This document shows, piece by piece, positions 16,952-35,168 of a DNA stretch of 64,000 nt; within the stretch, counting starts at the first letter, position 1; each line of letters starts with the position of its first letter. The notes under the pieces are model-generated. The model did not search any database and was not told the origin of the DNA. It saw only the letters and a list, made by a program, of their open reading frames with translations. This DNA is from Pseudomonas sp. B21-015. Lineage in GTDB: Bacteria > Pseudomonadota > Gammaproteobacteria > Pseudomonadales > Pseudomonadaceae. Both the position numbers and the translations under genes were made by a program. The stretch covers positions 248,001 through 312,000 of the forward strand of contig NZ_CP087196.1 in NCBI RefSeq assembly GCF_024749285.1. Reading direction: 5' to 3'.

Positions 16952-17106
16952 GGATCGACTCGATTCCCAATTTGTCTCAAAGCTGTGGATCAATTCCTCA
17001 CTAATAGTCTTCCTTGGCATTTAGCACCAGTGTCTCGATTTTTATGCTTGCTGAAACGTTTCTTCAAGTCTATAAAATTGGCACAACTCCAAGAAAGGCT
17101 GCTGCC

Positions 17107-18321
17107 ATGACCCCGCTCAAACTCTTCGTTGCCCTCAGCGCACTGTCCGCTGCCTCCCAAGCCATGGCCTGGGATTATGTTTTGCTCGACACCGACAAAG
17201 CCGCCCAGAACTGGCAGATCACCAGCCAGCAACTCGGCGTAAAAACCGACAAACCCTTCAGCGTCACCCTGCGCACCTTGCACGGCGGTCGGCAGGAAGG
17301 CGTCAGCATCGTCGACATCGATAACGGCACGATGAAACTTTCAGTAGTACCGACTCGTGGCATGAACGTCCTGCAGGCCTCCGTCGGCGATGTGCGCATG
17401 GGCTGGGATTCGCCGGTCAAGGAAGTGGTCAATCCTTCCTTCATCGAACTCAACGGCCGTGGTGGCCTGGGCTGGCTGGAAGGCTTCAACGAACTGGTCA
17501 CCCGCTGTGGCTACGAATGGGTCGGTCACCCCGGCATCGACAACGGCGAACTGCTGACCCTGCACGGTCGCGCCGCCAACATCCCTGCGAACAAAGTCAC
17601 CCTGCACATCGATGAAAAACCGCCGTACGCCATCACTCTGCGCGGCGAGCTGAAAGAGCAGGCGTTCAAGAAAGTCGACTTCTCCGTCGCGACCGAACTG
17701 GTCACCGAACCCGGCAGCGTAGCGTTCGCCCTCAACGACACCCTGACCAACAACGGCGACTATCCGAAGGAATACCAGGCGCTGTATCACAGCAACTTCA
17801 GTACCCCATTCCTGGAGCAGGGCGCTCGCTTCGCCGCGCCGGTGAAACAGGTGTCGCCATTCAACGACAAGGCCAAGGGCGATCTGCCCGACTGGCAAAC
17901 CTACCGCGCACCGACCAAGGACTACGACGAAACGGTCTATAACGTGGTGCCATATGCCGATGCCAAGGGCGATACATTAACCGTGCTGCATAACAAGGCC
18001 GGCAGCCTGGGGGTTTCGGTCGGCTTCAATACTCAAACACTGCCCGTGTTCTCCCTGTGGAAAAACACCGATACCCAGGGGCAGGGCTATGTCACGGGAC
18101 TGGAGCCGGGGACGAGTTTTTCTTACAACCGCCGGTATCAGCGGCCATTGAACCTGGTGCCGACAATTGGGCCGAAGGAACAGAAGCAGTTCGGGATCAG
18201 CTACAGCTTGTTGGCGGATAAGGCGGCTGTGGATAAGGCGTTGAAGCGTGTGAGCGAGATTCAGGGTGGGCGGGAGACAGAGGTGCGGCAGACGCCATTG
18301 GTTGATCTCACCAAGGGGTGA
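17107..18321 (+). CDS. Exported aldose 1-epimerase-like protein (DUF4432)
   Basis: 404 residues with a cleavable signal peptide (residues 1-21, SAASQAMA). The mature part is of the DUF4432/galactose-mutarotase-like beta-sandwich family: VPTRGMNVLQASVG, GGLGWLEGFNELVTRCGYEWVG, then LHGRAANIPA and ALYHSNFSTPFLEQG. Family members probably bind or epimerise sugars; most are cytoplasmic, so periplasmic export is notable. ATG at 17107 preferred (AGAAAGGCTGCTGCC upstream) over a longer frame starting inside the upstream leader. Its stop is only 7 bases from the comM remnant on the other strand. Confidence 0.85.
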   Translation: MTPLKLFVALSALSAASQAMAWDYVLLDTDKAAQNWQITSQQLGVKTDKPFSVTLRTLHGGRQEGVSIVDIDNGTMKLSVVPTRGMNVLQASVGDVRMGWDSPVKEVVNPSFIELNGRGGLGWLEGFNELVTRCGYEWVGHPGIDNGELLTLHGRAANIPANKVTLHIDEKPPYAITLRGELKEQAFKKVDFSVATELVTEPGSVAFALNDTLTNNGDYPKEYQALYHSNFSTPFLEQGARFAAPVKQVSPFNDKAKGDLPDWQTYRAPTKDYDETVYNVVPYADAKGDTLTVLHNKAGSLGVSVGFNTQTLPVFSLWKNTDTQGQGYVTGLEPGTSFSYNRRYQRPLNLVPTIGPKEQKQFGISYSLLADKAAVDKALKRVSEIQGGRETEVRQTPLVDLTKG

Positions 18322-18327
18322 CGCCTG

Positions 18328-18509
18328 CTAATTTGTGCTCGGCCGGTATTGCAGTGCCTCGGCCAAGTGCTCGCGGGTAATGCCATCGACTTGCTCAAGG
18401 TCCGCCAGGGTGCGCGCCACTTTGAGCAGTCGATGGGCTGACCTCAGCGACAAGGTCAGCCGTTCGCACGCCGTTTCCAGCCAGGTTTGGTCAGCAGTGA
18501 CGGGTATCG
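18328..18509 (-). pseudogene. comM: 3'-terminal fragment of a second comM copy
   Basis: On the minus strand this encodes ADQTWLETACERLTLSLRSA, then HRLLKVARTLADLEQVDGIT and EHLAEALQYRPSTN before TAG at 18328. This matches the C-terminus of the comM half at 23801 (ADEGWLESACERLTLSLRAA...EALQYRPSASS) in about four of five residues. The similarity fades just upstream, at about 18500-18530, where the stop codon of the MocR gene lies. It has no start of its own. The simplest reading is that this is the original 3' end of comM, displaced by the inserted block 18.5-23.8 kb. Confidence 0.88.
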
Positions 18510-18530
18510 CGCGAGCCTTCCCAAAATGCC

Positions 18531-20030
18531 CTACCGGGTTTTCAGTGCATTGGCCAAGCGCAGCATGGCCGCTTCGATTTCATAAGCGGTCAGGGACGAG
18601 TAACCCAATAGCCAGCCTTGTTTCTTCTCCTCGCCGGCGTACAACCGGCTCAGGCCGGAAAGCTGCACGCCCGCGCTGGCCGCTTGGCGGATGGTTTTTT
18701 CTTCAGACCAGCCATCGTGCAGCAGGCAGGGAATTTGTAGCCCGCCGGGAGGGCGCAAGGCGGTAACGATGCCGTCCAGGTGCTTGCCGATCGTGTCGAG
18801 CATGATGGCGCGGCGTCCGGCATACAACTTGCGCATGGCTCGGACGTGGGCGTTGTAATGGCCGTCCTCCATAAAGCGCGCCAGGGTCAGTTGCAGGATT
18901 TGTGGTGTATGGCCGTCAATCATGCTGCGGGCGTAGGTGAAAGCCTTGATCAGCTCGTGGGGCAGTACCATGTAACCCATTCGCAAGCCGGGGTAGAGGG
19001 TCTTGCTGAAGGTGCCGATATAGAGCGTACGCTGATACTTGTCCAGGCCCTGTACGCAGGCGGTCGGTTGCCCGTCGTAGTGAAACTCGCTGTCGTAATC
19101 ATCTTCGATGATCCATTTGCCCTTCTCCGCTGCCCAGTTGATCAACTCAAGACGACGCTCCAGCGGCAAGGTCGCGCCGGTGGGGTATTGATGAGAAGGC
19201 GTGACATAAACGCAATTGGCGCCGCTGCGGTCGGCGTACAGCAGGTCGGTGCGTATGCCCAGTTCATCGACATCGATGGGAAGAACGTTGGTCTCGGCGG
19301 TTTCAAAGGCTTTCTTGGCGCCGTAGTAACCCGGGTTTTCCAGCAGGATCGGTTTGCCGGCGTCCACCAGCAACTGCGCACACAGAAAAAGAGCCTGGCG
19401 AGTGCTGCTCAATACCATGATCTGGTCGGGGGAGCATTTGGCCCCGCGCTCGAGGTTCAAGTAGGTGGCGATGGCCTTGCGCAGCGGCTCGGCGCCTTGC
19501 GGATCGCCGTGCAATAGCACGTTGGCGCGATAGTCCTTCATCACTTGGCGTTGCAGGCGCTCCCAGACATCGGTGGGGAAGGTGCGGGTTTCCGGCAGGC
19601 CGGTCGCGAATGCCTTGATTACCTGCTGATCGTTCACGCCGCCACTGTCGAAGATCATCCGCCCGCGCTGGCTCAATCCCGCCCCCGGTGCCGCCTGACT
19701 GCTTTTGACTTCCTGCGCCTTGATGCGTCGGCGCGCTGCGCCGCGCAATTCGGTGCCCAGCGTTTCACAGACATAACTGCCAGCCCCCTCGCGCCGCACG
19801 ATAAAACCGTCGCGGTGCAGTTGCACGTAGGCGTTTTCAACAGTGTCGCGGGCAATCCCGAGTGACTTGGCCAGGACCCGGGTCGCGGGCAGCTTCAAGC
19901 CTGGGGCAAGGGCGCCATCGAGGATCAATGCACGCAGTGCGCGCTGAATCCGCTGATGCAGATTCAACAGCTGGAACTCAACATCGTTGAGGCGCATTTT
20001 CAGCGTTTCCAGCTCGAACGTCTTCGCCAT
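18531..20030 (-). CDS. MocR/PdxR-type regulator (GntR HTH + aminotransferase fold)
   Basis: 499 residues. GntR winged helix at about 20-90 (ALILDGALAPGLKLPATRVL; AKSLGIARDTVENAYVQLHRDGFI), linker, then a fold-type I aminotransferase-like domain (140-495) with the PLP-lysine region GTFSKTLYPGLRMGY, the Asp motif IIEDDYDSEFHYDG and TPSHQYPTG. MocR proteins use bound PLP or its amino-acid adducts as signal. It is divergent from a transporter/YggS/SHMT set, so it most likely regulates those. A perfect 8-bp inverted repeat just upstream is a candidate operator. The stop codon abuts the displaced comM fragment. Confidence 0.92.
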   Translation of the reverse strand: MAKTFELETLKMRLNDVEFQLLNLHQRIQRALRALILDGALAPGLKLPATRVLAKSLGIARDTVENAYVQLHRDGFIVRREGAGSYVCETLGTELRGAARRRIKAQEVKSSQAAPGAGLSQRGRMIFDSGGVNDQQVIKAFATGLPETRTFPTDVWERLQRQVMKDYRANVLLHGDPQGAEPLRKAIATYLNLERGAKCSPDQIMVLSSTRQALFLCAQLLVDAGKPILLENPGYYGAKKAFETAETNVLPIDVDELGIRTDLLYADRSGANCVYVTPSHQYPTGATLPLERRLELINWAAEKGKWIIEDDYDSEFHYDGQPTACVQGLDKYQRTLYIGTFSKTLYPGLRMGYMVLPHELIKAFTYARSMIDGHTPQILQLTLARFMEDGHYNAHVRAMRKLYAGRRAIMLDTIGKHLDGIVTALRPPGGLQIPCLLHDGWSEEKTIRQAASAGVQLSGLSRLYAGEEKKQGWLLGYSSLTAYEIEAAMLRLANALKTR

Positions 20031-20054
20031 GCGGTCTGCCTGATCTTAGTAAAT

Positions 20055-20074
20055 TGGCCTGCAAAGGCAGGCCA
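20055..20074. promoter_or_regulatory. Candidate MocR operator (inverted repeat)
   Basis: TGGCCTGC-AAAG-GCAGGCCA: perfect 8-bp arms, 25 bases upstream of the MocR start codon, suited to autoregulation. Farther along, at 20200-20218, GGTCTGG occurs twice as a direct repeat with 12-base phasing, nearer the divergent transporter; MocR proteins often bind direct repeats. Confidence 0.5.
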
Positions 20075-20318
20075 GTCTATCCGTAGAATCCGCCCATCGT
20101 CACTGCCTTTGCGCTCGGTGATCGGTCGCTGCATTGAGCGACTTCATGAAGAATTTTGCCCGCGGGCTGAGGCAGGGATCGCTTTCAGTCACAGCAAGCG
20201 GTCTGGTAAGTGGTCTGGCCTTCTGCGAGAAAGTGCAGGGGCAAAACATGCCATTTCAACGTTATAAATCCGCCCTTATCCGGGACAGGCACCTCGTTTT
20301 GCAAGGAGCAAAGCCATC

Positions 20319-21569
20319 ATGTCGTCTTCAGCATTGCCATCGCCCCTGCGTTTACGGGACCTTCTGCATCCGACTGTCGCCGGGCTGATTTCAGTCATCG
20401 TCAACTATGGCGGCACTTTCATCCTGGTCTTTCAGGCCGCCAAAGTGGCCGGGCTCAGCCCAGAACTGACAGCGTCGTGGGTATGGTCGGTGTCGATTGG
20501 CGTGGGCATTACCGGGCTGTTTCTGAGTTGGGTGAGCCGAGAGCCGATCATTACCGCCTGGTCGACACCCGCGGCGGCTTTTCTGGTCGTCGCGCTGTCC
20601 ACCACGCCTTACGCCGAGGCGGTGGGTGCGTACATTATTTCGGCCGCCGCCTTCGTGCTGCTGGGTTTGTCCGGTTGCTTCGAAAAACTCATCCGCCTGA
20701 TTCCGTCGGGTGTGGCTGCGGGCCTGCTGGCCGGTATCTTGTTGCAGTTCGGTATCGGCGCATTTGGTGGCATGAGTCTTGACCCAATGTTGGTCGGGTT
20801 GCTGATTGCCATTTACGTTGTGCTCAAGCGTTTTACCGCCCGCTATGCGGTGGTGGGCATTCTGGTGCTGGGGCTGGCGTTTCTTCTGACGCAGGGCCGT
20901 GTGGATCTTTCGGGGTTGGCGCTGCAATTCGCGGCACCGGTATTCACCCGACCTGAGTTTTCGATCAATGCGCTGCTCAGCGTGGCGCTGCCGCTGTTCC
21001 TGATCACCCTCACCGGCCAGTACATGCCGGGCATGCTGGTGCTGCGCAACGATGGCTTCAGCACCAGCGCTAACCCTATCCTGACTGTCACAGGGCTGGG
21101 TTCCCTGCTAATGGCGCCCTTCGGTTCTCACGCCTTCAATATCGCGGCCATCACGGCGGCCATCTGCACCGGCAAAGAAGCCTCGGAGGATCCGTCCAAG
21201 CGCTGGATCGCCGGGGTTGCTGCGGGACTGTTCTACATCCTCGTAGGGATTTTCGGGGTGACCCTTGCTGCGGTGTTCATGGCGTTACCGGCCACCTTCA
21301 TTACGACGCTGGCCGGGCTGGCCCTGCTCGGCACTATCGGCGCGAGCCTGGCCAGCGCCATGGCTGACGTCAAAGCCCGCGAAGCCTCGCTGATCACCTT
21401 TCTGGCGTCCGCCGCGAACATCACCTTGCTGGGGATTGGTGGGGCGTTCTGGGGGTTGCTGATCGGTCTGGCGGCTTACGCCTTGCTCAATGGCCGCTTA
21501 CCGCGTCGCGAGACGATGGTCATTCCGGCTGCCGACGCTGTTGTGACGACCAAAGGAGCCTCCCACTGA
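20319..21569 (+). CDS. BenE-family transporter (benzoate/amino-acid-type symporter)
   Basis: 416-residue membrane protein with about 11-12 hydrophobic segments. Family features include PTVAGLISVIVNYGGTFILV, a central GLLAGILLQFGIGAF helix, LTGQYMPGMLVLRNDGF and GSHAFNIAAITAAICTG. BenE proteins are proton-coupled transporters; benzoate is the named substrate of the type member, but the pairing here with PLP enzymes suggests an amino acid or a pyridoxine-like vitamer (inference). AAGGAGC precedes the ATG. The stop TGA overlaps the next gene's ATG by one base. Confidence 0.85.
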   Translation: MSSSALPSPLRLRDLLHPTVAGLISVIVNYGGTFILVFQAAKVAGLSPELTASWVWSVSIGVGITGLFLSWVSREPIITAWSTPAAAFLVVALSTTPYAEAVGAYIISAAAFVLLGLSGCFEKLIRLIPSGVAAGLLAGILLQFGIGAFGGMSLDPMLVGLLIAIYVVLKRFTARYAVVGILVLGLAFLLTQGRVDLSGLALQFAAPVFTRPEFSINALLSVALPLFLITLTGQYMPGMLVLRNDGFSTSANPILTVTGLGSLLMAPFGSHAFNIAAITAAICTGKEASEDPSKRWIAGVAAGLFYILVGIFGVTLAAVFMALPATFITTLAGLALLGTIGASLASAMADVKAREASLITFLASAANITLLGIGGAFWGLLIGLAAYALLNGRLPRRETMVIPAADAVVTTKGASH

Positions 21570-22387
21570 TGTTTGATCAACTGGAACAAACCGTCACCCT
21601 GCACGAGCGTCATGGCCGTTACCCACAGGCCACCAGCGTCGAGGACTTTCGCCGCAACCTGGCAGCCGTGCAGCAGCGAATCGCCAATGCCTGTCAGCGG
21701 GTCGGACGTGATCCGGCGAGTGTGCGCCTGCTGCCGGTCAGCAAAACCTTTGACGAAGCTCATCTGCGTCTGGCCTACGCCGCTGGCTGCCGTCTACTCG
21801 GTGAGAACAAGGTGCAGGAAGCGCAGCGCAAATGGCAGGCCATGACCGACCTGGCCGACCTGCAATGGTCGGTTATCGGCCACCTACAAACCAACAAGGC
21901 CAAGCAGGTGGCGCGTTTTGCCAGTGAGTTTCAGGCGCTGGACAGCTTGCGAGTGGCCGAGGCCCTGGATCGTCGCCTGCACATCGAGGGGCGCCAACTG
22001 GATGTGTTCGTTCAGGTCAATACCTCCGGCGAAGCCAGCAAATACGGCTTGGCGCCCGAAGCCGTCGCGGACTTTTTGAATGCCCTGCCGGCGTTCCCGG
22101 CGTTACGGGTGCGTGGGTTGATGACACTGGCGCTGTTTTCGGCCGACGTGGTCCGTGTCCGTCCTTGCTTTGTACGGCTGCGCGAACTGCGCGAGCGCTT
22201 GCGCCAGCGCGCCCCGGCGGGCGTCGGGCTGGAGGAATTGTCCATGGGCATGTCCGGTGATTTCGAAGTCGCCATTGAAGAGGGGGCCACCGTGGTGCGT
22301 GTCGGTCAGGCCATCTTCGGTGCACGTGCCATGCCTGATGTCTACTACTGGCCGAACGCGGATGCCCATCCGGGAAGTGATGAGTAG
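21569..22387 (+). CDS. YggS/PROSC-type PLP-binding protein (paralogue)
   Basis: 272 residues, slightly longer than the usual 230 because of an N-terminal extension of about 30 residues. PLP lysine in LLPVSKTF, GENKVQEAQRKW, WSVIGHLQTNKAK and the C-terminal phosphate-binding ELSMGMSGDFEVAIEEGATVVRVGQAIFG, here spanning the barrel. YggS proteins hold and deliver PLP and keep amino-acid and vitamin B6 pools in balance; they are not known catalysts. Coupled to the transporter by TGATG. Because pseudomonads normally carry a housekeeping copy next to proC/pilT, this is probably a second, specialised copy. Confidence 0.9.
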   Translation: MFDQLEQTVTLHERHGRYPQATSVEDFRRNLAAVQQRIANACQRVGRDPASVRLLPVSKTFDEAHLRLAYAAGCRLLGENKVQEAQRKWQAMTDLADLQWSVIGHLQTNKAKQVARFASEFQALDSLRVAEALDRRLHIEGRQLDVFVQVNTSGEASKYGLAPEAVADFLNALPAFPALRVRGLMTLALFSADVVRVRPCFVRLRELRERLRQRAPAGVGLEELSMGMSGDFEVAIEEGATVVRVGQAIFGARAMPDVYYWPNADAHPGSDE

Positions 22388-22442
22388 TCGCCGCTGACAC
22401 CCTCCTTAACATATTGATCCAGCTCTACAGGAAGCCAATCCG

Positions 22443-23708
22443 ATGTACGACTCAACGCTGACCCTTAAAGCATTCGACGCCGAGCTGTGTGAGGCGATTC
22501 ATAACGAAGAACATCGTCAGGAAGACCACGTCGAACTGATCGCTTCCGAAAATTACGCCAGCCCTCTGGTGATGAAAATCCAGAGCACCGTGCTCACCAA
22601 TAAATACGCCGAAGGCTACCCAGGCAAGCGCTACTACAGCGGCTGCGAGTATGTCGATGTGGCCGAGCGTCTGGCCATCGAGCGGGTCAAGGCCCTGTTC
22701 AACTGCGACTACGCCAACGTGCAGCCGCATGCGGGTGCCCAGGCGAACGCTGCGGTATTCCTGGCATTGATCAATCCTGGCGATACGGTGATGGGCATGA
22801 ACCTGGCCCAAGGTGGCCACCTGACCCACGGTAACCCTTCAAACTTCTCGGGCCGTCATTACAAGATCGTTCCTTATGGCCTTGACCCGCAGACGGGCTT
22901 TCTCGATTACGACGAGATGGAGCGTATCGCCCTGGAAACCCGGCCGAAGATGCTGATCGGTGGTTTTTCCGCCTACTCCCGGTACAAAGACTGGGCGCGT
23001 ATGCGGGCCATTGCCGACAAGGTCGGAGCCATTTTCTGGGTCGACATGGCCCACGTCGCAGGATTGGTCGCCGCGGGAGAATACCCGGACCCATTGCCGC
23101 ACGCCCATGTGATCACCAGCACCACGCACAAGACCCTGCGGGGCCCACGGGGTGGCTTGATTTTGTCCAAGGGGCAAGATGACGCATTCTACAAAAAGCT
23201 TGATTCTGCGGTATTCCCGGGTGTTCAGGGCGGCCCATTGATGCACCAGATCGCCGCCAAGGCCGTCGCTTTCAAGGAAGCACTGAAGCCAGAGTTCAAA
23301 ACCTATCAGGCCCAGGTGGTGATCAACGCCCGGGCCATGGCGGCCGTGCTGCAAGAGCGGGGTTACAAGATCGTCTCCGGTGGCACCGATAACCACATGA
23401 TGCTAATCGACCTGTCCGACAGGCCTTATACCGGCAAGGAAGCCGATACGGCCCTGAGCAATGCCTATATCACCGCTAACAAGAACTCGGTGCCCAACGA
23501 CCCGCGCTCACCGTTCGTGACCTCCGGGTTGCGCATCGGTACCCCAGCCATCACCACCCGTGGTTTCGGCGTGATCGAATGTGAACAATTGGCGGGCTGG
23601 TTGTGCGACGTACTGGACGCCCTGGAAAACGGCAACAGCGAGAAGGTGGGGCATCACGTGCGTGAACAGGTGGTGGAGCTCTGCCGCCGTCATCCTGTCT
23701 ATCGTTAA
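22443..23708 (+). CDS. glyA: Serine hydroxymethyltransferase
   Basis: 421-residue fold-type I PLP enzyme converting serine + THF to glycine + methylene-THF. Key motifs: [10 protein letters not shown], the PLP lysine in [44 protein letters not shown]. The length is normal. It follows the YggS-like gene by 55 bases with ACAGGAAGCC upstream and forms an operon with it. Pseudomonads usually have more than one glyA; this accessory copy belongs to the MocR-controlled set. Confidence 0.94.
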
Positions 23709-23800
23709 CCCTGTTACTCCGGGCCATTACCCGGCTGATGTCATCATCGGGCGAAAAACCAGACGCTTGGGACGACCGGGTGCACTCGATGCCAATCTCT

Positions 23801-24661
23801 CTAGCTGGATGCGGATGGCCGATATTGCAGTGCTTCGGCGACGTGGCTGCGACCGATAGCGTCTACTTGTTCCAGATCCGCCAGGGTACGGGCGACTTTC
23901 AGTAGGCGGTGAGCGGCACGAAGCGAAAGGGTTAGTCGCTCGCAGGCGCTTTCCAGCCAGCCTTCATCTGCTTTGGATAACGCGCAATGCTGGCGCAGCC
24001 CTGGCAGGTCGAGAAAGGCGTTGGCGCAGCCCTGACGCTGTTGCTGACGCTCCCGGGCTTGGGCGACCAGGGCAGAAGCGCTGGCCGTATCGTCACCGGT
24101 TTTGATCGGGTTCAGCGCCGTGCTTTCCCGGGCCACTGTTAGATGCAGATCGATGCGGTCCAGCAGCGGCCCCGACAGTTTGTTGCGATAGCGCTGAACC
24201 ATGTCCGGCGTACAGGAGCAACGACCGCTCGGCTCGCCAAGATATCCACAGGGGCAGGGATTCATCGCGGCGACCAGCTGAAAGCGCGCCGGGAAGCGTA
24301 CTCGGTCCTTGGCGCGGGAAATCACGATATGGCCGGATTCCAGTGGCTCTCTCAGTACTTCCAACACCTTGCGATCAAATTCCGGGAGTTCATCGAGGAA
24401 CAGCACACCATGGTGGGCGAGGGTGATTTCGCCGGGTTGCGGTTTCGAGCCGCCGCCCACCAGCGCCGGGCCTGAAGCGGAGTGGTGTGGTTGTCGGAAG
24501 GGGCGTTGCGGCCAATGACTCAGTGGCACACAACTGGCGACGGATTGAATCGCCGCGACTTCCAGCGCTTCACTCTCGGCCAATGGCGGCAACAGACCGG
24601 GCAGACGACTCGCCAACAACGTTTTCCCCGTCCCCGGCGGCCCGCTGAACAGCAGGTTGTG
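23801..24661 (-). pseudogene. comM: comM (yifB) 3' half, separated from its 5' half by a 10.5-kb element
   Basis: Encodes the last 286 residues of a Mg-chelatase-like AAA+ ATPase: Walker A FSGPPGTGKTLLASRLPGLL, Walker B HHGVLFLDELPEFDRKVLEVL, sensor region and zinc-like cysteines CPCGYLGEPSGRCSC. ComM is a hexameric helicase that promotes branch migration during natural transformation. The 5' half lies at 35163-35801; joined at the shared GTTGTG core the two give 499 codons in frame, normal for the family. As it stands an N-terminally truncated product could only start inside the element. The C-terminal segment differs from the comM scrap at 18.3 kb. Confidence 0.92.
24651..24661. other. Left attachment-site core
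   Basis: AGCAGGTTGTG inside the comM coding sequence (codons His-Asn-Leu-Leu of the GAHNLLFSGPPG motif on the minus strand). Left copy of the element's direct repeat. Confidence 0.7.
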
Positions 24662-24759
24662 GCACAAAACACCTACGTAATGTGTTGATGGTGCTGGCGG
24701 CAAGGACAGCATCTATATGGTGGTCTAGGCTCCCCCACTACCTATCAGGAGAATGCCGC

Positions 24760-25083
24760 ATGGACAGTGAAAAAAAGGCTACGTGCTACTACAAATATGA
24801 AATCGAGGGTCAGGAGAAATCTAGGAAAACTGTGTTATCAGAAGATCTCAAGCATCCGGCCTCAGTGGGACGCTTAGCAGAGCAATTGAGACAGGCAATC
24901 AGGCTGGATGAACCAAAGTATTTTATAAAAACACCCGAGGAGCACGGAACAACGCGCACGGGATATTTTGTAGGGCCTGCCAAGATCGTATTTGGTTGGG
25001 ATAAAGAATTCGAGCGAGGGTTTGAGTCGGGAGCAACTGACAGATTCAACTTTTACGTAAAGGATAGGCCTCTCAAATTGTGA
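24760..25083 (+). CDS. Hypothetical protein at the left end of the element
   Basis: 107-residue soluble, charged protein not recognised (begins MDSEKKATCYYKYEIEGQEK, ends FNFYVKDRPLKL). No signal peptide, membrane segment or known motif. CAGGAG lies 8 bases upstream of the ATG at 24760, which was chosen over an upstream ATG (24682) for that reason. It is the first gene inside the comM insertion and is followed by a receiver-domain gene in the same direction. Confidence 0.6.
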   Translation: MDSEKKATCYYKYEIEGQEKSRKTVLSEDLKHPASVGRLAEQLRQAIRLDEPKYFIKTPEEHGTTRTGYFVGPAKIVFGWDKEFERGFESGATDRFNFYVKDRPLKL

Positions 25084-25191
25084 GGTTCGCTGCGCGAGGG
25101 CTGATCTGACCGTACCGCACGACAAGCCGTAGACCCAGCACACCGAAGGTGAAAGACTGACTAGCCAGATTGGAGGGTGGACAACTTCGCT

Positions 25192-25623
25192 ATGGATGTG
25201 AACTTCCGGCTACAGCCAATCGATGGTGAAATCGTTGTGGTCGAGGACGACCCTCTACTACGTGACCTGATGCAAGACATCTTGGTGGACGTTGGCGCTC
25301 AGTGTGTCGCGTTCAGCAGCGGCGACGATGCGTTGATTTACTTGCTGCAATCTGACACCAAATGCGCCCTAATCATTGCTGACCACGGGCTACCGGGACA
25401 GGTTCAAGGAGCAGAGTTGGCGGAGCTTGTCCGTGGCAGATGGCCCGAGATACCAATAGTCATTACAAGCGGCTGGACTGACACCTTTATCGGGCTGCCG
25501 GGGGCTACCAACTTCCTTCCAAAACCGTGGACGTTAGAAGGTTTGGTGACGGCAGTTGCGGAATTGCTTCAACCCGGTGTGCCGGTGAGTAAGAAGTCTT
25601 CACTCCTCAGCGAAGATGATTGA
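25192..25623 (+). CDS. Single-domain response regulator (receiver only)
   Basis: 143 residues made of one receiver domain. Acidic pair VEDD (18-20), phospho-acceptor D64 in IIADHGLPG, Thr/Ser switch VITSGW and K111 in LPKPW. There is no output domain, so it would act through protein contacts, like CheY- or FixJ-type stand-alone receivers. No cognate histidine kinase is inside the element. The start is uncertain: ATG at 25192 has GGAGGG 14 bases upstream; a GTG at 25177 would lie on that GGAGGG. Confidence 0.82.
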   Translation: MDVNFRLQPIDGEIVVVEDDPLLRDLMQDILVDVGAQCVAFSSGDDALIYLLQSDTKCALIIADHGLPGQVQGAELAELVRGRWPEIPIVITSGWTDTFIGLPGATNFLPKPWTLEGLVTAVAELLQPGVPVSKKSSLLSEDD

Positions 25624-25628
25624 GAGCT

Positions 25629-25799
25629 ATGGCCGAAAACGGCGCTTTCTCAGGGGCATTAAGCAGTACCTGGATTTTCAATGACGGGGGCCGCTATCTT
25701 TGCCGAATATCTGAGGTTTCAGGGGCGCTTGAGGCTACCCCTGACGTTGTCTTGGGAGAGGCGCTAGAACGCCTCAGAAGGGTGGAAAAGCCCCTGTAA
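25629..25799 (+). CDS. Small hypothetical protein (56 aa)
   Basis: ATG at 25629, 5 bases after the receiver gene's stop, opens a frame of 56 codons (MAENGAFSGALSSTWIFNDG..., ending ERLRRVEKPL) closed by TAA at 25797. Close spacing and a purine-rich upstream GAGAG suggest co-translation with the receiver. No similarity recognised. Confidence 0.5.
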   Translation: MAENGAFSGALSSTWIFNDGGRYLCRISEVSGALEATPDVVLGEALERLRRVEKPL

Positions 25800-25813
25800 T
25801 AGCCCGTTTCGAC

Positions 25814-26521
25814 TTAGGGAAAGGTGATACCGAGACGTTGAACCAATCGGCTCACTGTCATAGGGGTGAACTCAGCACCACGGCTAGTCTTGATCGACTG
25901 TTTGTTGAGATAGGCTGCTACCCCAGCAAGAGTTTTGATTCCGTCGAAGCTTGCCGCCTTGATGTGATTCTTAACAGTCTGAGCGTAAACGTCTGCCTTC
26001 TCTACCTTGGCGGCTGTTGCTGCCTTAGGTCCAACCTTATGGGCCTCCTTACGACCAGCATCACGCCGTTCAATCTTAGCCTGAGCCGACATATCCCCAT
26101 TTTCAGCACGTTGCTTCAGCGAGCCTAGAGCGTCTTTGGTGCGTTGGCTGATGAACTCTCGTTCCTGCTGTGCGAGTGCGGCGTAAATGTGGAGTTGGAA
26201 AGCGTCGGCGTCGGGCATCGTCGCAACCTTGAAGGAAGCCCGTTTCATCAGGCCCGCAATGTGTTCAACATCACGAGAGATACGGTCAAGTTTTGCCACT
26301 ACGAGGATTGCACCTGTCTCTTTAGCAGCATTCATTGCCTTGATGCATTCAGGGCGATCCGTTGGCGCTATCGTGCCCGAAGCTGTATCGACGAATTCCG
26401 CGATGATTTCCCAGCCTTTCGCCTTAGCTGCAAGGGCGATATAGTCACGCTGAGCTTCCAGACCCAAGCCTGACTCGCCTTGCTTGACTGTACTGACTCG
26501 AAGATAGCTGACTACTTTCAT
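25814..26521 (-). CDS. Small serine recombinase (resolvase/invertase type)
   Basis: 235 residues. Catalytic domain with YLRVS (Ser10), then LEAQRDYI, the KLDRISRD segment and AALAQQEREFISQRTKDAL on the long helix. The C-terminal part contains a helix-turn-helix-like region (MTVSRLVQRLGITFP). This matches resolvases/invertases that act on inverted sites near their gene. ATG at 26521 chosen over an upstream frame start because it begins the conserved MKVVSYLRVS. A dyad site lies 38-75 bases upstream. It is divergent from the Mrr-type nuclease. Confidence 0.88.
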   Translation of the reverse strand: MKVVSYLRVSTVKQGESGLGLEAQRDYIALAAKAKGWEIIAEFVDTASGTIAPTDRPECIKAMNAAKETGAILVVAKLDRISRDVEHIAGLMKRASFKVATMPDADAFQLHIYAALAQQEREFISQRTKDALGSLKQRAENGDMSAQAKIERRDAGRKEAHKVGPKAATAAKVEKADVYAQTVKNHIKAASFDGIKTLAGVAAYLNKQSIKTSRGAEFTPMTVSRLVQRLGITFP

Positions 26522-26558
26522 GGTGGTGATTCCCGTCAATTCCTGTTGATGGGTCAAT

Positions 26559-26596
26559 CATATCATAACGCTGACGAACGTCAATGGAATGATATG
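26559..26596. promoter_or_regulatory. 38-bp dyad: candidate recombination (res) site or operator
   Basis: Perfectly symmetric arms: CATATCAT, 5 bases, TGACG, central AA, CGTCA, 5 bases, ATGATATG. The centre is at 26577/26578. It lies between the small recombinase and the divergent nuclease gene. Length, outer and inner half-sites and a central dinucleotide suit a serine-recombinase crossover site; it could equally be an operator for both promoters. Confidence 0.6.
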
Positions 26597-26701
26597 GTAC
26601 GTTTTCACGACAGCGAGCGCTTGATGGAACCGTCTTGCAGTGGCAATCTGCCTTACACTTAGGCGTGTAACGTCTTCTGCCAACCATGGAAGGCCCATAA
26701 C

Positions 26702-28333
26702 ATGGAATTTTTCTATGTGCTCCTGATCACGCTCGTAATCTACTACGTGGGTGACTTCTGGAGAGCGCGTCTCTCCAAGCAACCTTGGGCAGTTAAAAAG
26801 TTAAACCCATTCAGTCAACGGGTAGATGTGGAGGCTTGGACGGGTTGGGATGAAAGCCCGTCCGAGGAGAAACCACGCCGGACCCTCCGAGAAATTAAAG
26901 ATCGGCACGTCCAACAACGTGAAGCGGAAGCTTCGTTGAAGAATCAATGGAACGAAGAGATATTTGAAACCTACGAAAACATTTTGCATGAGAGTCTTCA
27001 GGCGCAACACTTTCTCGACTTTAACTCCCTTTACGAACCAGTCCTCCTTCCCGAATCCTCTGTTCCGTCTCATTTGGTGCAATGCGCTGCGCCTCCTAAG
27101 ATAGAAAACTTCCGGCAAAGCAGATGGGTAGAGATATTGAGCAGGTTCTATCCGGGACATGCTTCGCGACTGATCAATGCAGACGAAGAGCAATCCTATC
27201 TGTATCAGCACGCATTGGAAGTTTGGGAGGAGGCAGAGAAGGCCAGGATTGCAGCCCTACAAACCTACAAAGATGAATTCGAACGTCAATACTTGGAAGC
27301 CGTTGCTCATAACGAATTAATAGTACAAAAGAAGAGCAGACTTACCGAAAATTATCTTTTGGGCGATGAGTTCATTGTTGCAGCTTATGTGAAGAAGATA
27401 TTGGAAGCATCACCGTATCCAAAGTCACTTCCTCGTAAAATCAAAGTCACCTACGTAGGTTCGTCCAAACAGCTGATAGTGGATTTCGAGCTGCCCAAAG
27501 TTGACGTGATACCGGACCAGTCTGATTTCAGGTATGTCAAAGCAAGCGACAAGATATTGGGGAAGCGGAGGAAGACTAGGGATATCGACGACGACTACAC
27601 AAAGCTTATTTCAGCGATAGCGCTGAAGGTGCTTCACGAGGTCTTTGCTTCTGACAGCGGTAACGTTATTGAGGTGTGTTGCTTCAACGGCTACCTAGAC
27701 ACAATCGACAGGTCTACAGGCAGCAAGGTCAGACCTTGCTTAATCTCCACTAGAACTACAAAGGAAAAATTGGCCGCTATTGATTTGGCACACGTGGACG
27801 CTCGCCTTTGTGTCCGCAATTTGGGCTCACATGTTTCAAGAAGTGCGACAGAGCTACAAGCAGTAAAACCTATTATCGAGTTCAACATGACGGACCGGCG
27901 CTTTGTTGGCGAAGGTGATATGTCGTTCCTAAGCTCTGCTCAGAATCTGATGGACTTGAACCCTTACGAATTCGAAAGGTTGATTGTTAAATTGTTTCAA
28001 GAGCTAGGATTGGATGCGAAATTAACGCAATCTTCACGAGATGGAGGTGTCGACTGCGTGGCATACGACACTCGCCCTATCATTGGCGGAAAGGTTGTTA
28101 TACAGGCGAAACGATACCGACACACGGTCGGGGTATCGGCTGTAAGAGATCTGTTTGGAACTATGGGGCACGAAGGCGCGAATAAAGGTATTTTGGTCAC
28201 AACAAGCGGTTATGGTCCCGACGCGTTCAACTTTGCAAAGGATAAGCCCATCGAACTTATTGATGGCGGTGGTTTACTCCATTATCTGCAAACTGTGGGG
28301 ATTGAGGCTCGTATCGTCATGCCTAACGATTGA
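26702..28333 (+). CDS. Membrane-anchored Mrr-type restriction endonuclease
   Basis: 543 residues. An N-terminal hydrophobic helix (about 3-17, FFYVLLITLVIYYVG) is followed by a long charged, probably helical region to about 210, a middle domain of unknown fold (220-400) and a C-terminal Mrr_cat nuclease domain (about 412-535). PD-(D/E)xK residues: acidic E423/E425 in PYEFERLI, D451 in RDGGVDCVAYD, and Q468-A-K470 in VVIQAKRY. Mrr enzymes cut modified DNA. Membrane tethering points to action on DNA as it enters the cell, but that is inference. Alone on the plus strand, flanked by a recombinase. Confidence 0.85.
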   Translation: MEFFYVLLITLVIYYVGDFWRARLSKQPWAVKKLNPFSQRVDVEAWTGWDESPSEEKPRRTLREIKDRHVQQREAEASLKNQWNEEIFETYENILHESLQAQHFLDFNSLYEPVLLPESSVPSHLVQCAAPPKIENFRQSRWVEILSRFYPGHASRLINADEEQSYLYQHALEVWEEAEKARIAALQTYKDEFERQYLEAVAHNELIVQKKSRLTENYLLGDEFIVAAYVKKILEASPYPKSLPRKIKVTYVGSSKQLIVDFELPKVDVIPDQSDFRYVKASDKILGKRRKTRDIDDDYTKLISAIALKVLHEVFASDSGNVIEVCCFNGYLDTIDRSTGSKVRPCLISTRTTKEKLAAIDLAHVDARLCVRNLGSHVSRSATELQAVKPIIEFNMTDRRFVGEGDMSFLSSAQNLMDLNPYEFERLIVKLFQELGLDAKLTQSSRDGGVDCVAYDTRPIIGGKVVIQAKRYRHTVGVSAVRDLFGTMGHEGANKGILVTTSGYGPDAFNFAKDKPIELIDGGGLLHYLQTVGIEARIVMPND

Positions 28334-28348
28334 GCCGCCTAGTCATCA

Positions 28349-28585
28349 CTACATGCGCTGCCGTGCATCCAAAACGTTCAACTGACTCTCTAGGCGATTG
28401 GTAGAGTTGTCCAGTCGTTCGGATAGGGTGTTTAACCTCTGCTCCTCGTATGCGGCCTGTGAAAGTTGAATCAGCCGTTGCTGTGCGAGGTCGTGCGTTA
28501 GGTTCGCTACCTGTTCCATTGCTGACTGTGCCTGGCTGTATGTGTGCAACGTGAACATGAGCGTTGTGGCTGCAATTGTTATCAC
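28349..28585 (-). CDS. Small membrane-anchored coiled-coil protein
   Basis: 78 residues: an N-terminal hydrophobic helix (ITIAATTLMFTLHTY) then an amphipathic, Gln/Leu-rich coiled coil (HDLAQQRLIQLSQAAYEEQR, LSERLDNSTNRLESQLNVLD). The layout recalls small inner-membrane spanin-like or scaffolding proteins, but no family is recognised. Start is GTG at 28585 overlapping AGGAG; no ATG is available upstream before an in-frame stop. Convergent with the nuclease gene, 15 bases apart. Confidence 0.5.
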   Translation of the reverse strand: MITIAATTLMFTLHTYSQAQSAMEQVANLTHDLAQQRLIQLSQAAYEEQRLNTLSERLDNSTNRLESQLNVLDARQRM

Positions 28586-28673
28586 TCCTGCACTAATTAT
28601 GTAATTTATTCTTGTATTAATTGTATTGTCTCGTAATTGTGGGGCGGAACACGTCCGTGCTTGATTAATTTAA

Positions 28674-28687
28674 TATTGACGTCAATA
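28674..28687. promoter_or_regulatory. 14-bp perfect palindrome upstream of the coiled-coil gene
   Basis: TATTGACGTCAATA, perfectly self-complementary, in the 156-base gap between two leftward small genes. It shares the TGACGTCA-like core with the inner arms of the dyad at 26572-26583 (TGACG/CGTCA), so the same protein may recognise both. Confidence 0.45.
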
Positions 28688-28741
28688 AACATGGCGTATT
28701 GAGAGATGAAGGGAGGGTGTCAGTCTCCCTGTCTCAGTTAC

Positions 28742-28978
28742 TTAATTACCTGCTAAATTCTGTTGTGGGAATCTTTCAAGAAGGATTTGTTTAGTGCGGT
28801 CAACATACTCCGTGGGCTTGCTCGCCTCTAGCATTAGGTCGATGTAATGTTGTATCTCTTCTTCAGATAACTTAGGCGTAGGAGCTGGTTCTGGTGTTTT
28901 CTCTTTCTTGTTGAAGTATTGTTTGCTTAAGAGCTTTTCTTCGTAGGTTTTGGGAAATAGAACTTTCTTAATTGGCAT
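28742..28978 (-). CDS. Hypothetical protein (78 aa)
   Basis: Lysine-rich start (MPIKKVLFPKTYEEKLLSKQ), a proline-rich hinge (TPEPAPTPKL) and an acidic helix (SEEEIQHYIDLMLEAS). Not recognised. It begins 4 bases after the stop of the preceding leftward gene, so it is part of the same translationally linked set. Confidence 0.55.
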   Translation of the reverse strand: MPIKKVLFPKTYEEKLLSKQYFNKKEKTPEPAPTPKLSEEEIQHYIDLMLEASKPTEYVDRTKQILLERFPQQNLAGN

Positions 28979-28982
28979 TTTG

Positions 28983-29303
28983 TTACTCCGATTTCTTTAG
29001 ATGGGAAAGTGTTTCGTTGGCGTACGTTAAAGCGTACGTGTCGATAAAAGTGTTGAAGGCGAAAAGGTCGTCGTGTCCGCCGATAGGCTTGCCATTTATA
29101 ATCAGACGATGATTGACCCACAGCAACGACATTGCGTCCAAGTCATAAAGTATCTTGTACACATTAATGTTTGATATGGGACTATCAATCAGATATGACA
29201 CCCTGCCGTTACGCAACGGCTGGGATGACACAACGTTAGGTATAAATGTACTGGCGATTCTACCGGCGTCGACGGGTCGGCCTGTGATAAGCCAGAAGTA
29301 CAT
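28983..29303 (-). CDS. Hypothetical protein (106 aa)
   Basis: Begins MYFWLITGRPVDAGRIASTF and ends with NETLSHLKKSE; no motif recognised. Its ATG overlaps the preceding gene's stop by one base (TAATG), which indicates coupled translation within a leftward operon of the element. Confidence 0.6.
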   Translation of the reverse strand: MYFWLITGRPVDAGRIASTFIPNVVSSQPLRNGRVSYLIDSPISNINVYKILYDLDAMSLLWVNHRLIINGKPIGGHDDLFAFNTFIDTYALTYANETLSHLKKSE

Positions 29304-29770
29304 TAACTGGCTTTAAGGTTTTGGAATACTTCCTGAGCTTCAGCCAAAGCAGCAGCCATTTCCTTCTCTTCTTTTACTTGAAGAGCCTTGGCTTCTTTTG
29401 CTTTCTTTTGATCGAACAACTGCTGAGCCAGGAGCTGAATGTTACGTTCCTTGTCTGCTTCCAGTTCAAGTTCGTATTGCGCTTTCACCTCTTGTTCAAT
29501 TCGCTGAAGCTCTTCTTCCAGATTTTCTTTCTCAAAACATACGAGCAAGTATCCGTTCAAGTTTTGAGGAGTTCGGAACTGACTGAGCTTTCGTCCTTTG
29601 GTAGCCATTTCCATAACCTTTGGAATTGCAAGGGATACAGGCTCGTGAATAGTTTCCAATGCTGCTGCTGAGCTTTTGAAACTGAAGATGGCGTTCTTCA
29701 ATCGTTTATCAAATACTTCCTGATTGAACTGGAAGCTTTGGAGGCTGACGTGCTCTTTGATGCTGGTCAT
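29303..29770 (-). CDS. Hypothetical coiled-coil protein (155 aa)
   Basis: Globular first half (FKSSAAALETIHEPVSLAIP; GYLLVCFEKENLEEELQRIE) and a long acidic/lysine coiled coil to the end (ELELEADKERNIQLLAQQLF; KKAKEAKALQVKEEKEMAAA). No family recognised. First gene of a leftward operon of three; a 43-base repeated motif lies 120-160 bases upstream. Confidence 0.6.
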   Translation of the reverse strand: MTSIKEHVSLQSFQFNQEVFDKRLKNAIFSFKSSAAALETIHEPVSLAIPKVMEMATKGRKLSQFRTPQNLNGYLLVCFEKENLEEELQRIEQEVKAQYELELEADKERNIQLLAQQLFDQKKAKEAKALQVKEEKEMAAALAEAQEVFQNLKAS

Positions 29771-29889
29771 ATTGTGTTTCCTTCTGTGATTTAGATGCCA
29801 TTACGGCTTTGTGTAGGCAAAGAGATTACCTGTGTCGCCCTTATTGCAAGAGCAGATTCTTTAGTGTTAATTGTCTGAGAGCCTTATAT

Positions 29890-29932
29890 ATCAACGCTTA
29901 GAGTATGATGTGTGAATCAGTTGTACTATCTA
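29890..29932 (-). promoter_or_regulatory. Repeated motif, copy 1 (candidate promoter/operator)
   Basis: The 26-base core at 29907-29932 matches that at 31551-31576 in 21 positions (GATGT..G.ATCA..TGTACTATCTA on the plus strand). Weaker similarity continues to 29890 (ATCAA..TT..GAG). It begins 12 bases after the stop of the zinc-finger gene and lies upstream of the 155-aa gene. Confidence 0.5.
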
Positions 29933-29943
29933 GTAAGGTGTTG

Positions 29944-31341
29944 TTAGAAGTCGCAGAAAATAGGTTCTATGAACTTCTTTATCCGTGGGTTGTTTGGGTT
30001 AGGGACGTAATCTTCCTCTATCTGAATATTGATCGTTGAATAATCATGTTCGTCTGTACATGTTTCGTATCCAAAACTCTCAAAAATCGCCATTTCCCTA
30101 TCGGCTTCACGGACCTTTTCAAGATATTCGTATTCTTGAATGCTGCTGCACACTCCCACAGCCAATATAGCTTTTTGTATCACTGGCACCTGAGAGTAGA
30201 AATTAGCATACTGATCTCTAAACGCTGATTGCATGCTGCTATTACTACGGCTGTAGTCAGGGGTCATTGCAGGAACGTGTAGATACTTACGCAAAGTTTT
30301 CAAGATCATCTTTCTATCAAGTGGTGCTCCCTGCATTGTCTGGAAAGTCTGAAATGCGACGAAATCCCGAAAGTCAGAAGCATCCATTCCGTCGCGAAGC
30401 TCTGCCGGGTTCCAATGCACGCCGTAAGGGCGATCTAGAATTGCAGCTAGGCCATCTTGCTCTTCCTGCCGGCTCAGCCACGCTCCAGCGACGGTTAGCA
30501 CGGGAATGAGGAAAGCTATGTCGTCTCTGTGTTTACCGTGTGGGAGCTGCTTAGAAAGCCTTACAGCCTCATCCAGCGCTACGACGATTGATCGCTTGGT
30601 AGAAAGATCCATCTGATAGACCTCTTTCTCTTCAAACGCAGCCCTGATCTTCCTTAGCTCCGTCATGCCCATGCGCTCAAGCTTCGCTAGCGTGTGAACA
30701 CAGCCCGTCACGTTCTTATGAATCCATTTAGCCAACGACAGCCGTTGACTCATGCGAATAGGGTTAACCTTGGCATATTCGATCAATACTGGCCCTAGAT
30801 ACTTCTGCACCTTCTGCAAGACTTTCGGGTCAGGCATGTCTTCAGAAATAAACCAGCGGGATTGGAGATTAAAGCGGCTGATGTCCAGCCCCGCGTTCTG
30901 ATAACACTTCGTGCTGTGAACTTGATTCGCTAAGCTAGGGCCGATGAACAGGTTATGAGGATGAAGCAGACCTACAGTGTTTTGACCTTTAACCGGCTGG
31001 ATATGGCAGAGATGAAACTTGCTTCTCTTCTTTTCAAAATCGAAGTCGTATGTTTTGTATTTGTAGTTGCGGAGTTCGAAAAGCTGTTCAAGTGTTTCTA
31101 CTGTATGAGAATGCAAGCACTCGACTGTACCCGCTCGTCTAACCTCTCTTGCAATCCAAAGCCATTCTTCAGATACAGGTAATTTTACAACTCGTTTCTC
31201 TGCAAGCTTCTGCCGTTTTGCTTTTGTATTACTGATCTTCTGGGCGGTTCTGCACTCTTCACTACAATACTTGCTTTTGACCTGGGCTGTGACATAGGGG
31301 TTATTGCAATGCAGGCATGTTCTGTTTCTTGTGATAGTCAT
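29944..31341 (-). CDS. Zinc-finger protein with a possible HNH-like motif (unknown function)
   Basis: 465 residues. N-terminal zinc finger CLHCNNPYVTAQVKSKYCSEEC (C-x2-C...C-x3-C type), a basic segment, then FHLCHIQPVKGQNTVGLLHP, NLFIGPSLANQVH: the H-x-x-P ... N-L ... N-x-x-H order resembles HNH nucleases. The remaining 300 residues, helical and acidic at the end (DEHDYSTINIQIEEDYVPNP), are not recognised. The same finger occurs in two much smaller proteins upstream. ATG at 31341 (MTITRNRTC) preferred to 31353. The start lies inside the preceding 65-aa gene. Confidence 0.6.
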   Translation of the reverse strand: MTITRNRTCLHCNNPYVTAQVKSKYCSEECRTAQKISNTKAKRQKLAEKRVVKLPVSEEWLWIAREVRRAGTVECLHSHTVETLEQLFELRNYKYKTYDFDFEKKRSKFHLCHIQPVKGQNTVGLLHPHNLFIGPSLANQVHSTKCYQNAGLDISRFNLQSRWFISEDMPDPKVLQKVQKYLGPVLIEYAKVNPIRMSQRLSLAKWIHKNVTGCVHTLAKLERMGMTELRKIRAAFEEKEVYQMDLSTKRSIVVALDEAVRLSKQLPHGKHRDDIAFLIPVLTVAGAWLSRQEEQDGLAAILDRPYGVHWNPAELRDGMDASDFRDFVAFQTFQTMQGAPLDRKMILKTLRKYLHVPAMTPDYSRSNSSMQSAFRDQYANFYSQVPVIQKAILAVGVCSSIQEYEYLEKVREADREMAIFESFGYETCTDEHDYSTINIQIEEDYVPNPNNPRIKKFIEPIFCDF

Positions 31342-31498
31342 GTGTATCCTCACTAGGGGATTGTTGTTTTAAGAGTTGCATGAGGTGGAACAATGCTACG
31401 TTAGCTGTATGTGTTGGTGATTTATGACCGTACATATCCATAAGCTTCAATAGCAGTTCACTCGCCTCTTGAGAAAGACTTACTTTTATCTTTGACAT
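31301..31498 (-). CDS. Small ribbon-helix-helix-like protein (65 aa)
   Basis: MSKIKVSLSQEASELLLKLM, then GHKSPTHTANVALFHLMQLL: a short beta strand followed by two helices as in CopG/Arc repressors. It overlaps the start of the zinc-finger gene by 41 bases. A copy of the repeated motif lies 36-78 bases upstream, consistent with its own promoter and autoregulation. Confidence 0.6.
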   Translation of the reverse strand: MSKIKVSLSQEASELLLKLMDMYGHKSPTHTANVALFHLMQLLKQQSPSEDTHDYHKKQNMPALQ

Positions 31499-31533
31499 TC
31501 TTATTACCTGTTGAATGGCTAGAGACCTTTAAA

Positions 31534-31576
31534 CATCAAGGTTTGAGGGTGATGTAGGGATCATCTGTACTATCTA
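31534..31576 (-). promoter_or_regulatory. Repeated motif, copy 2 (candidate promoter/operator)
   Basis: Core at 31551-31576, 21 of 26 bases equal to copy 1 at 29907-29932. It overlaps the last codon of the 58-aa RHH gene and precedes the 65-aa RHH gene; copy 1 likewise sits right after a stop codon. Confidence 0.5.
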
Positions 31577-31750
31577 CCGCAGCTTACTAAACTCTTTCTT
31601 CAGTTCTTTGTGCAGGAAGTATCGACGTACAACGGCTTGCACAGTCTTAGTGAAGCTTTCATAGTCGCGGGCTTCTTCTTCCAGCAAAGCAATCAAATCT
31701 AAGGGGAGAGCAATTCGAATTACTTTTGTGTCATGGATGGCTTGTGTCAT
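31574..31750 (-). CDS. Small ribbon-helix-helix protein (58 aa)
   Basis: MTQAIHDTKVIRIALPLDLI, then ALLEEEARDYESFTKTVQAVVRRYFL, an Arc/CopG-like strand-helix-helix. ATG at 31750 preferred to 31768 because a good purine-rich GAAGGAATTAAAA precedes it. It overlaps the 3' end of the 57-aa gene by 20 bases. Probably DNA-binding. Confidence 0.65.
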   Translation of the reverse strand: MTQAIHDTKVIRIALPLDLIALLEEEARDYESFTKTVQAVVRRYFLHKELKKEFSKLR

Positions 31751-31904
31751 TTTTAATTCCTTCTGCAATGTATTTATTTACCAATTCGCTGACGCTAGCG
31801 TTTTTTTGCAAGCTGAGTCCCTGAAGGCTGGCAAGAAGGCTACGCTCAATTAATAGCGTCTCTTTCGTGTAGCATTTGTCATTTATATAGATTTCGTTTC
31901 TCAT
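31731..31904 (-). CDS. Small hypothetical, possibly RHH-like (57 aa)
   Basis: Short frame starting MRNEIYINDKCYTKETLLIE and containing ASVSELVNKYIAEGI, the second-helix pattern of ribbon-helix-helix proteins. Its ATG overlaps the preceding zinc-finger gene's stop (ATGA), and its own end overlaps the next gene by 20 bases. Those overlaps are the main reason to believe it is real. Confidence 0.6.
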   Translation of the reverse strand: MRNEIYINDKCYTKETLLIERSLLASLQGLSLQKNASVSELVNKYIAEGIKNDTSHP

Positions 31905-32107
31905 GAACACACGTCTAGTACGTCTTGAAGCGATGCATCAAATGTCTTAAGAGCATCGGGAGTCTTCAATGTCTTCAGGGTTGCATTAATTTGCTCTCTT
32001 ACCTTTTTACGCAAACCGTAAATACGAACTACACACAAATTGGAACAGTATTTATGGTTTGCGTTGGTGGGTTCAAAGTCGGTATCACATACTAAGCATT
32101 GGTTCAT
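31901..32107 (-). CDS. Small zinc-finger protein (68 aa)
   Basis: MNQCLVCDTDFEPTNANHKY, CSNLC: Cx2C ... YCSxxC finger at the N-terminus, then a basic helix (RIYGLRKKVREQINATLKTL). Start at 32107 has GAGGAAG upstream and lies 23 bases inside the preceding gene. The finger repeats in the 74-aa neighbour and in the 465-aa protein. DNA or RNA binding is plausible. Confidence 0.65.
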   Translation of the reverse strand: MNQCLVCDTDFEPTNANHKYCSNLCVVRIYGLRKKVREQINATLKTLKTPDALKTFDASLQDVLDVCS

Positions 32108-35110: not shown

Positions 35111-35157
35111 GACAAAGGGCACGGTTAATGGGTGGAGGTGTAAAGTAGCACAAGGTA

Positions 35158-35168
35158 AGCAAGTTGTG
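35158..35168. other. Right attachment-site core
   Basis: AGCAAGTTGTG, matching the left copy (24651-24661) in 10 of 11 bases; the shared GTTGTG lies in comM codons CAC-AAC (His-Asn). It sits 48 bases upstream of the recombinase start. Confidence 0.7.

Follow-up and report, generated by a model that had tools for sequence, protein, structure and literature searches.

The comM gene of Pseudomonas sp. B21-015 is a mosaic of a native front and a foreign 3' end, and a second, diverged comM 3' end is present on the same strand beyond a group of foreign cargo genes. This region lies in the stretch of 64,000 nucleotides (nt) that was analysed, hereafter the window, which covers positions 248001-312000 of the single 6.59-Mb contig of this strain; coordinates below are those of the window. 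The cargo, hereafter the pyridoxal phosphate (PLP) block, consists of four genes, encoding a MocR-type regulator, a BenE-type transporter, a YggS-like protein and GlyA, which are predicted to serve vitamin-B6-related metabolism. We consider it probable that the second comM end, hereafter the scrap, is the displaced end of the resident gene, and that the foreign comM 3' end and the PLP block entered the locus by one-sided homologous recombination, with no integrase involved. The genes stand in the order DUF4432, scrap, MocR, BenE-type transporter, YggS-like protein, GlyA and comM 3' end, which was given by an earlier reading of the letters alone (the sequence-only reading) and is confirmed. The features are as follows.

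17014..18321, plus strand: DUF4432 gene, which natively follows comM (Pfam PF14486; position beside comM elsewhere).
18328..18509, minus strand: displaced comM 3' end (scrap), last ~55-60 codons and stop; best-aligned part 18331-18495.
18510..18530, no strand: eroded junction from the MocR stop to the scrap, shared with P. farris and G307 but not with DM22.
18531..20030, minus strand: MocR-type regulator (GntR and aminotransferase I/II domains).
20031..20318, no strand: scar of a lost class V aminotransferase gene, intact in DM22; ~50 nt of its 3' end are left.
20319..21569, plus strand: BenE-type transporter gene (Pfam PF03594).
21569..22387, plus strand: YggS-like PLP protein, Ala_racemase_N (Pfam PF01168).
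22388..22442, no strand: site of a lost class III aminotransferase gene, kept in DM22.
22443..23708, plus strand: serine hydroxymethyltransferase gene, glyA-type (Pfam PF00464).
23801..24144, minus strand: foreign comM 3' end (identity windows, trees and tests of tree topology).
24145..24661, minus strand: native middle part of comM (identity windows, trees).
24662..35189, no strand: serine-recombinase element splitting comM, ends approximate; recombinase at 33383-35113, minus strand.
35190..35801, minus strand: native 5' part of comM (tree).

The minus strand at 18328-18509 encodes, in a single frame, the final ~55-60 codons of a comM, ending in TADQTWLETACERLTLSLRSAHRLLKVARTLADLEQVDGITREHLAEALQYRPSTN and the stop. 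The scrap is 81% identical in amino acids to the present comM end (tblastn; residues 231-285 of the ComM C-terminal part, window 18331-18495), in line with the likeness of about 80% given by the sequence-only reading, and matches it in DNA at 105 of 144 positions (blastn, E 1e-20). As a direct repeat the two copies span 155 nt at 72%, the longest such repeat found within 17-36 kb. A genome-wide DNA search matched the scrap and the comM end alone, with no third copy. The foreign part of the present gene extends further inward than the scrap does, from 23801 to ~24144 in this strain.

The DUF4432 gene lies at most 100 bp from the comM 3' end in 22 of the 46 Pseudomonas genomes with a DUF4432 match (a count that includes the genome of this strain, and G088 with a fragment), within ~1.1 kb of comM in 3 further genomes, and elsewhere in most others. 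Because comM directly adjoins DUF4432 in these 22 genomes, an arrangement whose existence the sequence-only reading had proposed to look for, the scrap occupies the site of the native comM end. For example, in G083 the order is comM, 19 bp, DUF4432, a methyl-accepting chemotaxis protein (MCP) gene, a LysR gene and a MATE gene, and the DUF4432 protein is 99% identical to that of this strain. In G083, A-RE-19, s3b2 and AS1, comM adjoins DUF4432 and the PLP block is not at the comM locus; the block is thus not ancestral there in all relatives. In QTF5 (L152), codons 87-163 of the comM C-part are gone and the native end beside DUF4432 is kept.

Four carriers of both the block and the scrap were found, i.e. 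this strain, P. farris SWRI79, P. frederiksbergensis DM22 and G307; G303 shares the coordinates of P. farris and was taken as the same genome. With the insert in place, the comM frame is full-length in the other three carriers (497 amino acids in P. farris and DM22, 1494 nt in G307), as a comM-restoring integrative element would also leave it. When the best identity to seven native relatives was recorded per 60-nt window, it was 0.85-0.98 up to nt 1140 of comM and 0.69-0.82 beyond in all four carriers. The switch from native to foreign sequence falls at nt ~1086 to ~1116 in P. farris, DM22 and G307 (equivalent to ~24179-24209 here), and this strain is native until nt ~1151, a longer native stretch that may be read as a later small exchange. 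In other words, comM is native to about nt 1085-1150 and foreign past it, and the crossover lies inside the gene.

Trees of the two parts were built from rows chosen among the fetched loci, interrupted or partial comM genes being left out. In the 5' tree (nt 1-1079, 36 rows), the four carriers stand among s3b2, AS1, G083 and A-RE-19 (support 93/93). In the 3' tree (from nt 1160, 43 rows), the carrier tails group with a comM tail fragment of P. fluorescens FW300-N2E3 (98/95), which covers just 19% of the columns of that tree, and together with this fragment they adjoin PDM05, KBW05, P. marginalis and G210, which represent the fluorescens subgroup (93/92). Approximately unbiased (AU) tests rejected the placement of tails and scraps with the natives (p 1.1e-5), the arrangement of tails plus scraps (p 1.7e-7), and the placement of the comM 5' part within the fluorescens subgroup (p 3.2e-7). 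Two comM ends in one orientation would also result if the strain had duplicated its own comM end in tandem and the copies had then diverged, but such a duplication is ruled out by the AU tests, since tail and scrap as one clade (in this strain and P. farris) were rejected at p 2.8e-72; we give this explanation practically no weight. The two ends do not branch together as a recent duplication would have them, and the claim that incoming DNA brought its own comM end and displaced the resident one is upheld by a native 5' part, a foreign 3' part and a scrap at the native comM/DUF4432 junction.

The PLP block is also found at other places. When a stretch was fetched around each of 80 named loci of the block transporter, comM was found beside the transporter in eight, namely P. 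farris, DM22, PDM05, P. marginalis, P. veronii, P. fildesensis, KBW05 and CBZ-4, some of which retain MocR and the transporter alone; strains with the PLP block beside comM, which the sequence-only reading had likewise proposed to look for, thus exist. At the threshold used, no comM was found near the transporter in the other 72 loci, some of which are short contigs. In P. fluorescens FW300-N2E3, the block lies ~300 kb from comM and ends, after glyA, in a comM tail of ~70 nt that is of the same foreign type (L055:12710-12782), a short tail that was seen by DNA search alone and was missed at the threshold of the 80-locus survey. Among 398 Pseudomonas genomes, the foreign tail together with the glyA flank was found in this strain, G307 (93%) and G303 (90%) only, and the next-best comM tail outside the carriers, of the P. 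marginalis type, is 80% identical in nt. The block genes of this strain are 92-98% identical in nt to the copies at other loci in A-RE-19, s3b2 (which retains merely a YggS fragment of the block) and FW300-N2E3, and 83-86% identical to those of P. marginalis and PDM05; a direct transfer from P. marginalis was dropped for this reason. No donor is named, because the best comM tails outside the carriers reach 80% at most, and the source could have been an intermediate copy of the kind present in FW300-N2E3. In addition, G316 (L206:6466-6534) has a 23-codon comM tail at 86%, near AurF-, MFS- and GlyA-type genes; genes of these types flank the PLP block elsewhere, and the orientation in G316 is opposite to that of the PDM05 comM.

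In the event that we propose, a homologous crossover inside comM would have joined one side of the incoming segment to the chromosome, the foreign tail and the block arriving as one piece, and the other side would have been closed inside the resident comM end by a join without homology, as in homology-facilitated illegitimate recombination. The resident stretch of ~50-75 codons between crossover and join would have been lost then or soon afterwards. The join at the far side is a step that we infer, because the junction is eroded. The crossover (codons ~362-384) and the edge of the scrap (codon ~437-442) do not coincide, and Pfam found no recombinase domain in the four block proteins, as the sequence-only reading had stated, a result that is compatible with a RecA-dependent route and nothing more; one event with local loss would explain both observations.

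The sequence-only reading had named either an integrase-type element or recombination as the cause, and of these it is recombination that the evidence favours. An integrative element targeting comM might have carried its own comM 3' end and later lost its integrase, the scrap being its outer remnant. It speaks for such an element that insertions break up comM at several positions in Pseudomonas, as the serine recombinase does in the window, and that a displaced end in G008 (see below) starts at codon ~369, close to the crossover of the carriers; furthermore, erosion of the scrap is shown in DM22 and could conceal an original edge at the crossover. However, besides the lack of a recombinase domain in the block, no identical core is common to the two edges, which occupy different comM codons, and the block is made of ordinary metabolic genes that stand apart from comM at most of the 80 named loci, and so we hold this origin to be doubtful. 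Alternatively, the block and a comM 3' fragment could have come on a circular DNA that entered by a single homologous crossover (Campbell-type), which would give the same gene order, with a restored comM, the cargo and a displaced resident end from one step that needs no integrase. This route predicts donor sequence from the start of the scrap up to the crossover, of which none is seen, although erosion could explain it, and no circular carrier was found, plasmids being outside the search; we regard it as rather improbable.

Displaced comM ends with other cargo are present elsewhere in Pseudomonas. In two distant strains, G322 and G434 (L203 and L204), comM is separated from a displaced 3' end by an IetA/IetS defence pair. 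The former has a full comM, an IetS/IetA pair (PADLOC) and then a second comM 3' half; the two copies are only 71% identical in nt across their final ~350 nt, and the second starts, as judged by eye, at the comM position of the window's serine element; in the latter, comM is followed by IetA/IetS-type genes and by a broken comM end 7 kb on. In G008, a secretin gene and then an RHS-Ntox8 gene come between comM and its second end, which is at 92% nt. Because each of the three has its own cargo arrangement, these displaced ends are likely separate events.

At least two matches to the C-terminal 136 residues of ComM were found in 20 of 298 genomes, versus 2 of 298 for an equal length of cyaA (Fisher p 9e-5), and without the three carriers the numbers are 17 and 2 (p 6e-4). 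At the DNA level the comparison went the opposite way, with second matches in 21 of 398 genomes for comM and 64 of 398 for the cyaA control; when 20 comM genomes were searched again with protein, 12 retained a second match. The protein-level counts, which took the place of these DNA-level counts not used as evidence, mix displaced, relocated, split and contig-broken ends, and the events are not independent. The 20 genomes of the protein-level count comprise 3 carriers of the event described here; G008 and G322 with other displaced ends near comM; G022, whose second match is on another contig; G302, broken by a contig end; G001, G047, G200, G276, G289 and G316, taken as DUF4432-linked (G001 and G047 by inference); and G167, G174, G203, G215, G242, G277 and G313, whose second match has no assigned location. 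The second tail of G022 (apparent start at C-part codon 155) was dropped as a displaced end, the homology continuing upstream with a frame change. Since it comes with a single control gene, mixed causes and shared ancestry, the excess can be taken as an indication only.

Several observations weigh against the proposed one-sided recombination. Firstly, two of the scraps are not native-type: that of this strain is 94% and that of P. farris 91% identical to G087, both group with it (100/98), and a tree with all four scraps within the native clade was weakly rejected (AU p 0.035). Those of DM22 (93% to G083, but of 82 nt and hence weak) and G307 (92% to s3b2) are native-type. Because the first two scraps fall with the G087 comM rather than with that of the strains' own group, they were probably overwritten by later recombination with G087-type comM sequence. 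Secondly, the far junction is eroded and its form in DM22 differs from that in the other three carriers; the MocR-scrap junction is identical in this strain, P. farris and G307, and that of DM22 keeps ~43 nt which, as judged by eye, look like the sequence downstream of MocR in other strains. Thirdly, no sampled donor has both parts, the tail being nearest to the P. marginalis-type comM (~80% nt) and the block to copies of this strain's own wider group. Fourthly, the four carriers are not one clade in the rpoB tree (20 rows, DM22 partial), in which this strain falls with DM22 (100/99) and the other two carriers, P. farris and G307, fall with G083, s3b2 and QTF5 (98/95), although a single clade was not rejected (p 0.166); the block has either been lost again in some strains or passed between strains across its flanks.

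The ancestry of the scraps also bears on the idea that the DUF4432 gene and an attached comM scrap were imported as a unit, so that the scrap was never the comM end of this locus. DUF4432 genes with attached decayed comM tails do occur away from comM, and the grouping of two scraps with the G087 comM would fit. However, the DUF4432 gene is in syntenic position: as in G083, whose DUF4432 protein is 99% identical, its neighbours are MCP, LysR and MATE genes. With the native-type scraps of DM22 and G307, this makes such an import very improbable.

The displacement in comM is older than the insertion of the serine-recombinase element, because P. farris, DM22 and G307 each have the block and the scrap with an uninterrupted comM, and in this sense the event was rightly called the older one. 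Class V and class III aminotransferase genes are present in the DM22 block and missing from this strain, P. farris and G307, in which they were lost as a later step. Two further changes would likewise have followed the displacement, namely the probable replacement of the scrap sequence in this strain and P. farris and, in this strain, the entry of the serine-recombinase element. The serine element (24662-35189), which is not in the other three carriers, splits comM just ahead of the Walker-A motif, and contains the recombinase gene (33383-35113), a resolvase-type gene (25814-26557) and a gene for a predicted type IV restriction enzyme (26702-28333; PADLOC). The comM gene is split at several different codon positions in G070, G057, G073, G052, G048, G049, G088 and G084, and the elements that target it in Pseudomonas seem to be of more than one kind.

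Pieces of comM are also found with genes that lie far from it. A decayed comM tail stands right after the DUF4432 stop in 3 of 20 distant DUF4432 loci (E below 1e-3). Further DUF4432-attached comM tails far from comM were found in TNT3 and P. veronii, and five more in loci selected for a second comM match in the genome; the loci with DUF4432 and a decayed comM tail are L147, L148, L163, L164, L165, L205, L207, L208, L209 and L210. In L205, an MCP gene fragment is also kept on the opposite side, as though the unit had been excised from a comM locus. Taken together with the tail of the FW300-N2E3 block, these DUF4432 tails suggest that gene units beside comM may move off with an attached comM piece. 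One could go further and, from the FW300-N2E3 block tail, the distant DUF4432 tails and the displaced ends that flank IetAS, RHS and PLP cargo, regard comM tails as portable homing arms, which let blocks formerly adjacent to comM recombine into and out of the comM loci of other strains. This is a speculative and rather unlikely idea; if true, it would mean an integrase-free cassette cycle at a gene whose product helps integrate foreign DNA.

The comM locus appears here as a record of repeated foreign insertions. To these the PLP block adds a route by which comM stays full-length and exchanges its end, metabolic genes being likely gained without an integrase, and the displaced, diverged gene end is a readable signature of such a gain. 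The excess of second matches over cyaA (20/298 vs 2/298) makes the comM end a testable hot spot. As judged by titles and abstract openings, no literature on displaced comM ends in Pseudomonas was found in the library searched.

The product of comM is described as a helicase that aids the integration of heterologous DNA in transformed cells (PMC11472951), and the gene itself is interrupted by AbaR in Acinetobacter baumannii (PMC11472951) and by elements in Pseudomonas syringae and others (PMC4774983). In those cases, too, comM is a recurrent site of foreign DNA, and the serine element of the window is of that sort; however, such elements break the gene, whereas the PLP-block event kept a full-length frame and swapped the end. 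Homology-facilitated illegitimate recombination, as described in PMC3240628, refers to laboratory events, whereas here it is proposed for an old natural locus with an eroded far join. The same mechanism has been proposed for the displaced ("orphan") ends of type VI secretion system (T6SS) effector genes and Rhs genes in Vibrio cholerae and others (PMC5361080). As in that account, an incoming piece anchored by homology would have taken the place of the resident end, whose old piece is left downstream; unlike the toxin and immunity genes treated there, the end concerned here is that of comM, the cargo is metabolic, and the scrap is without evident function. The event is thus of the same kind as the displaced Rhs and T6SS gene ends, and is new in that it took place at comM with metabolic cargo.

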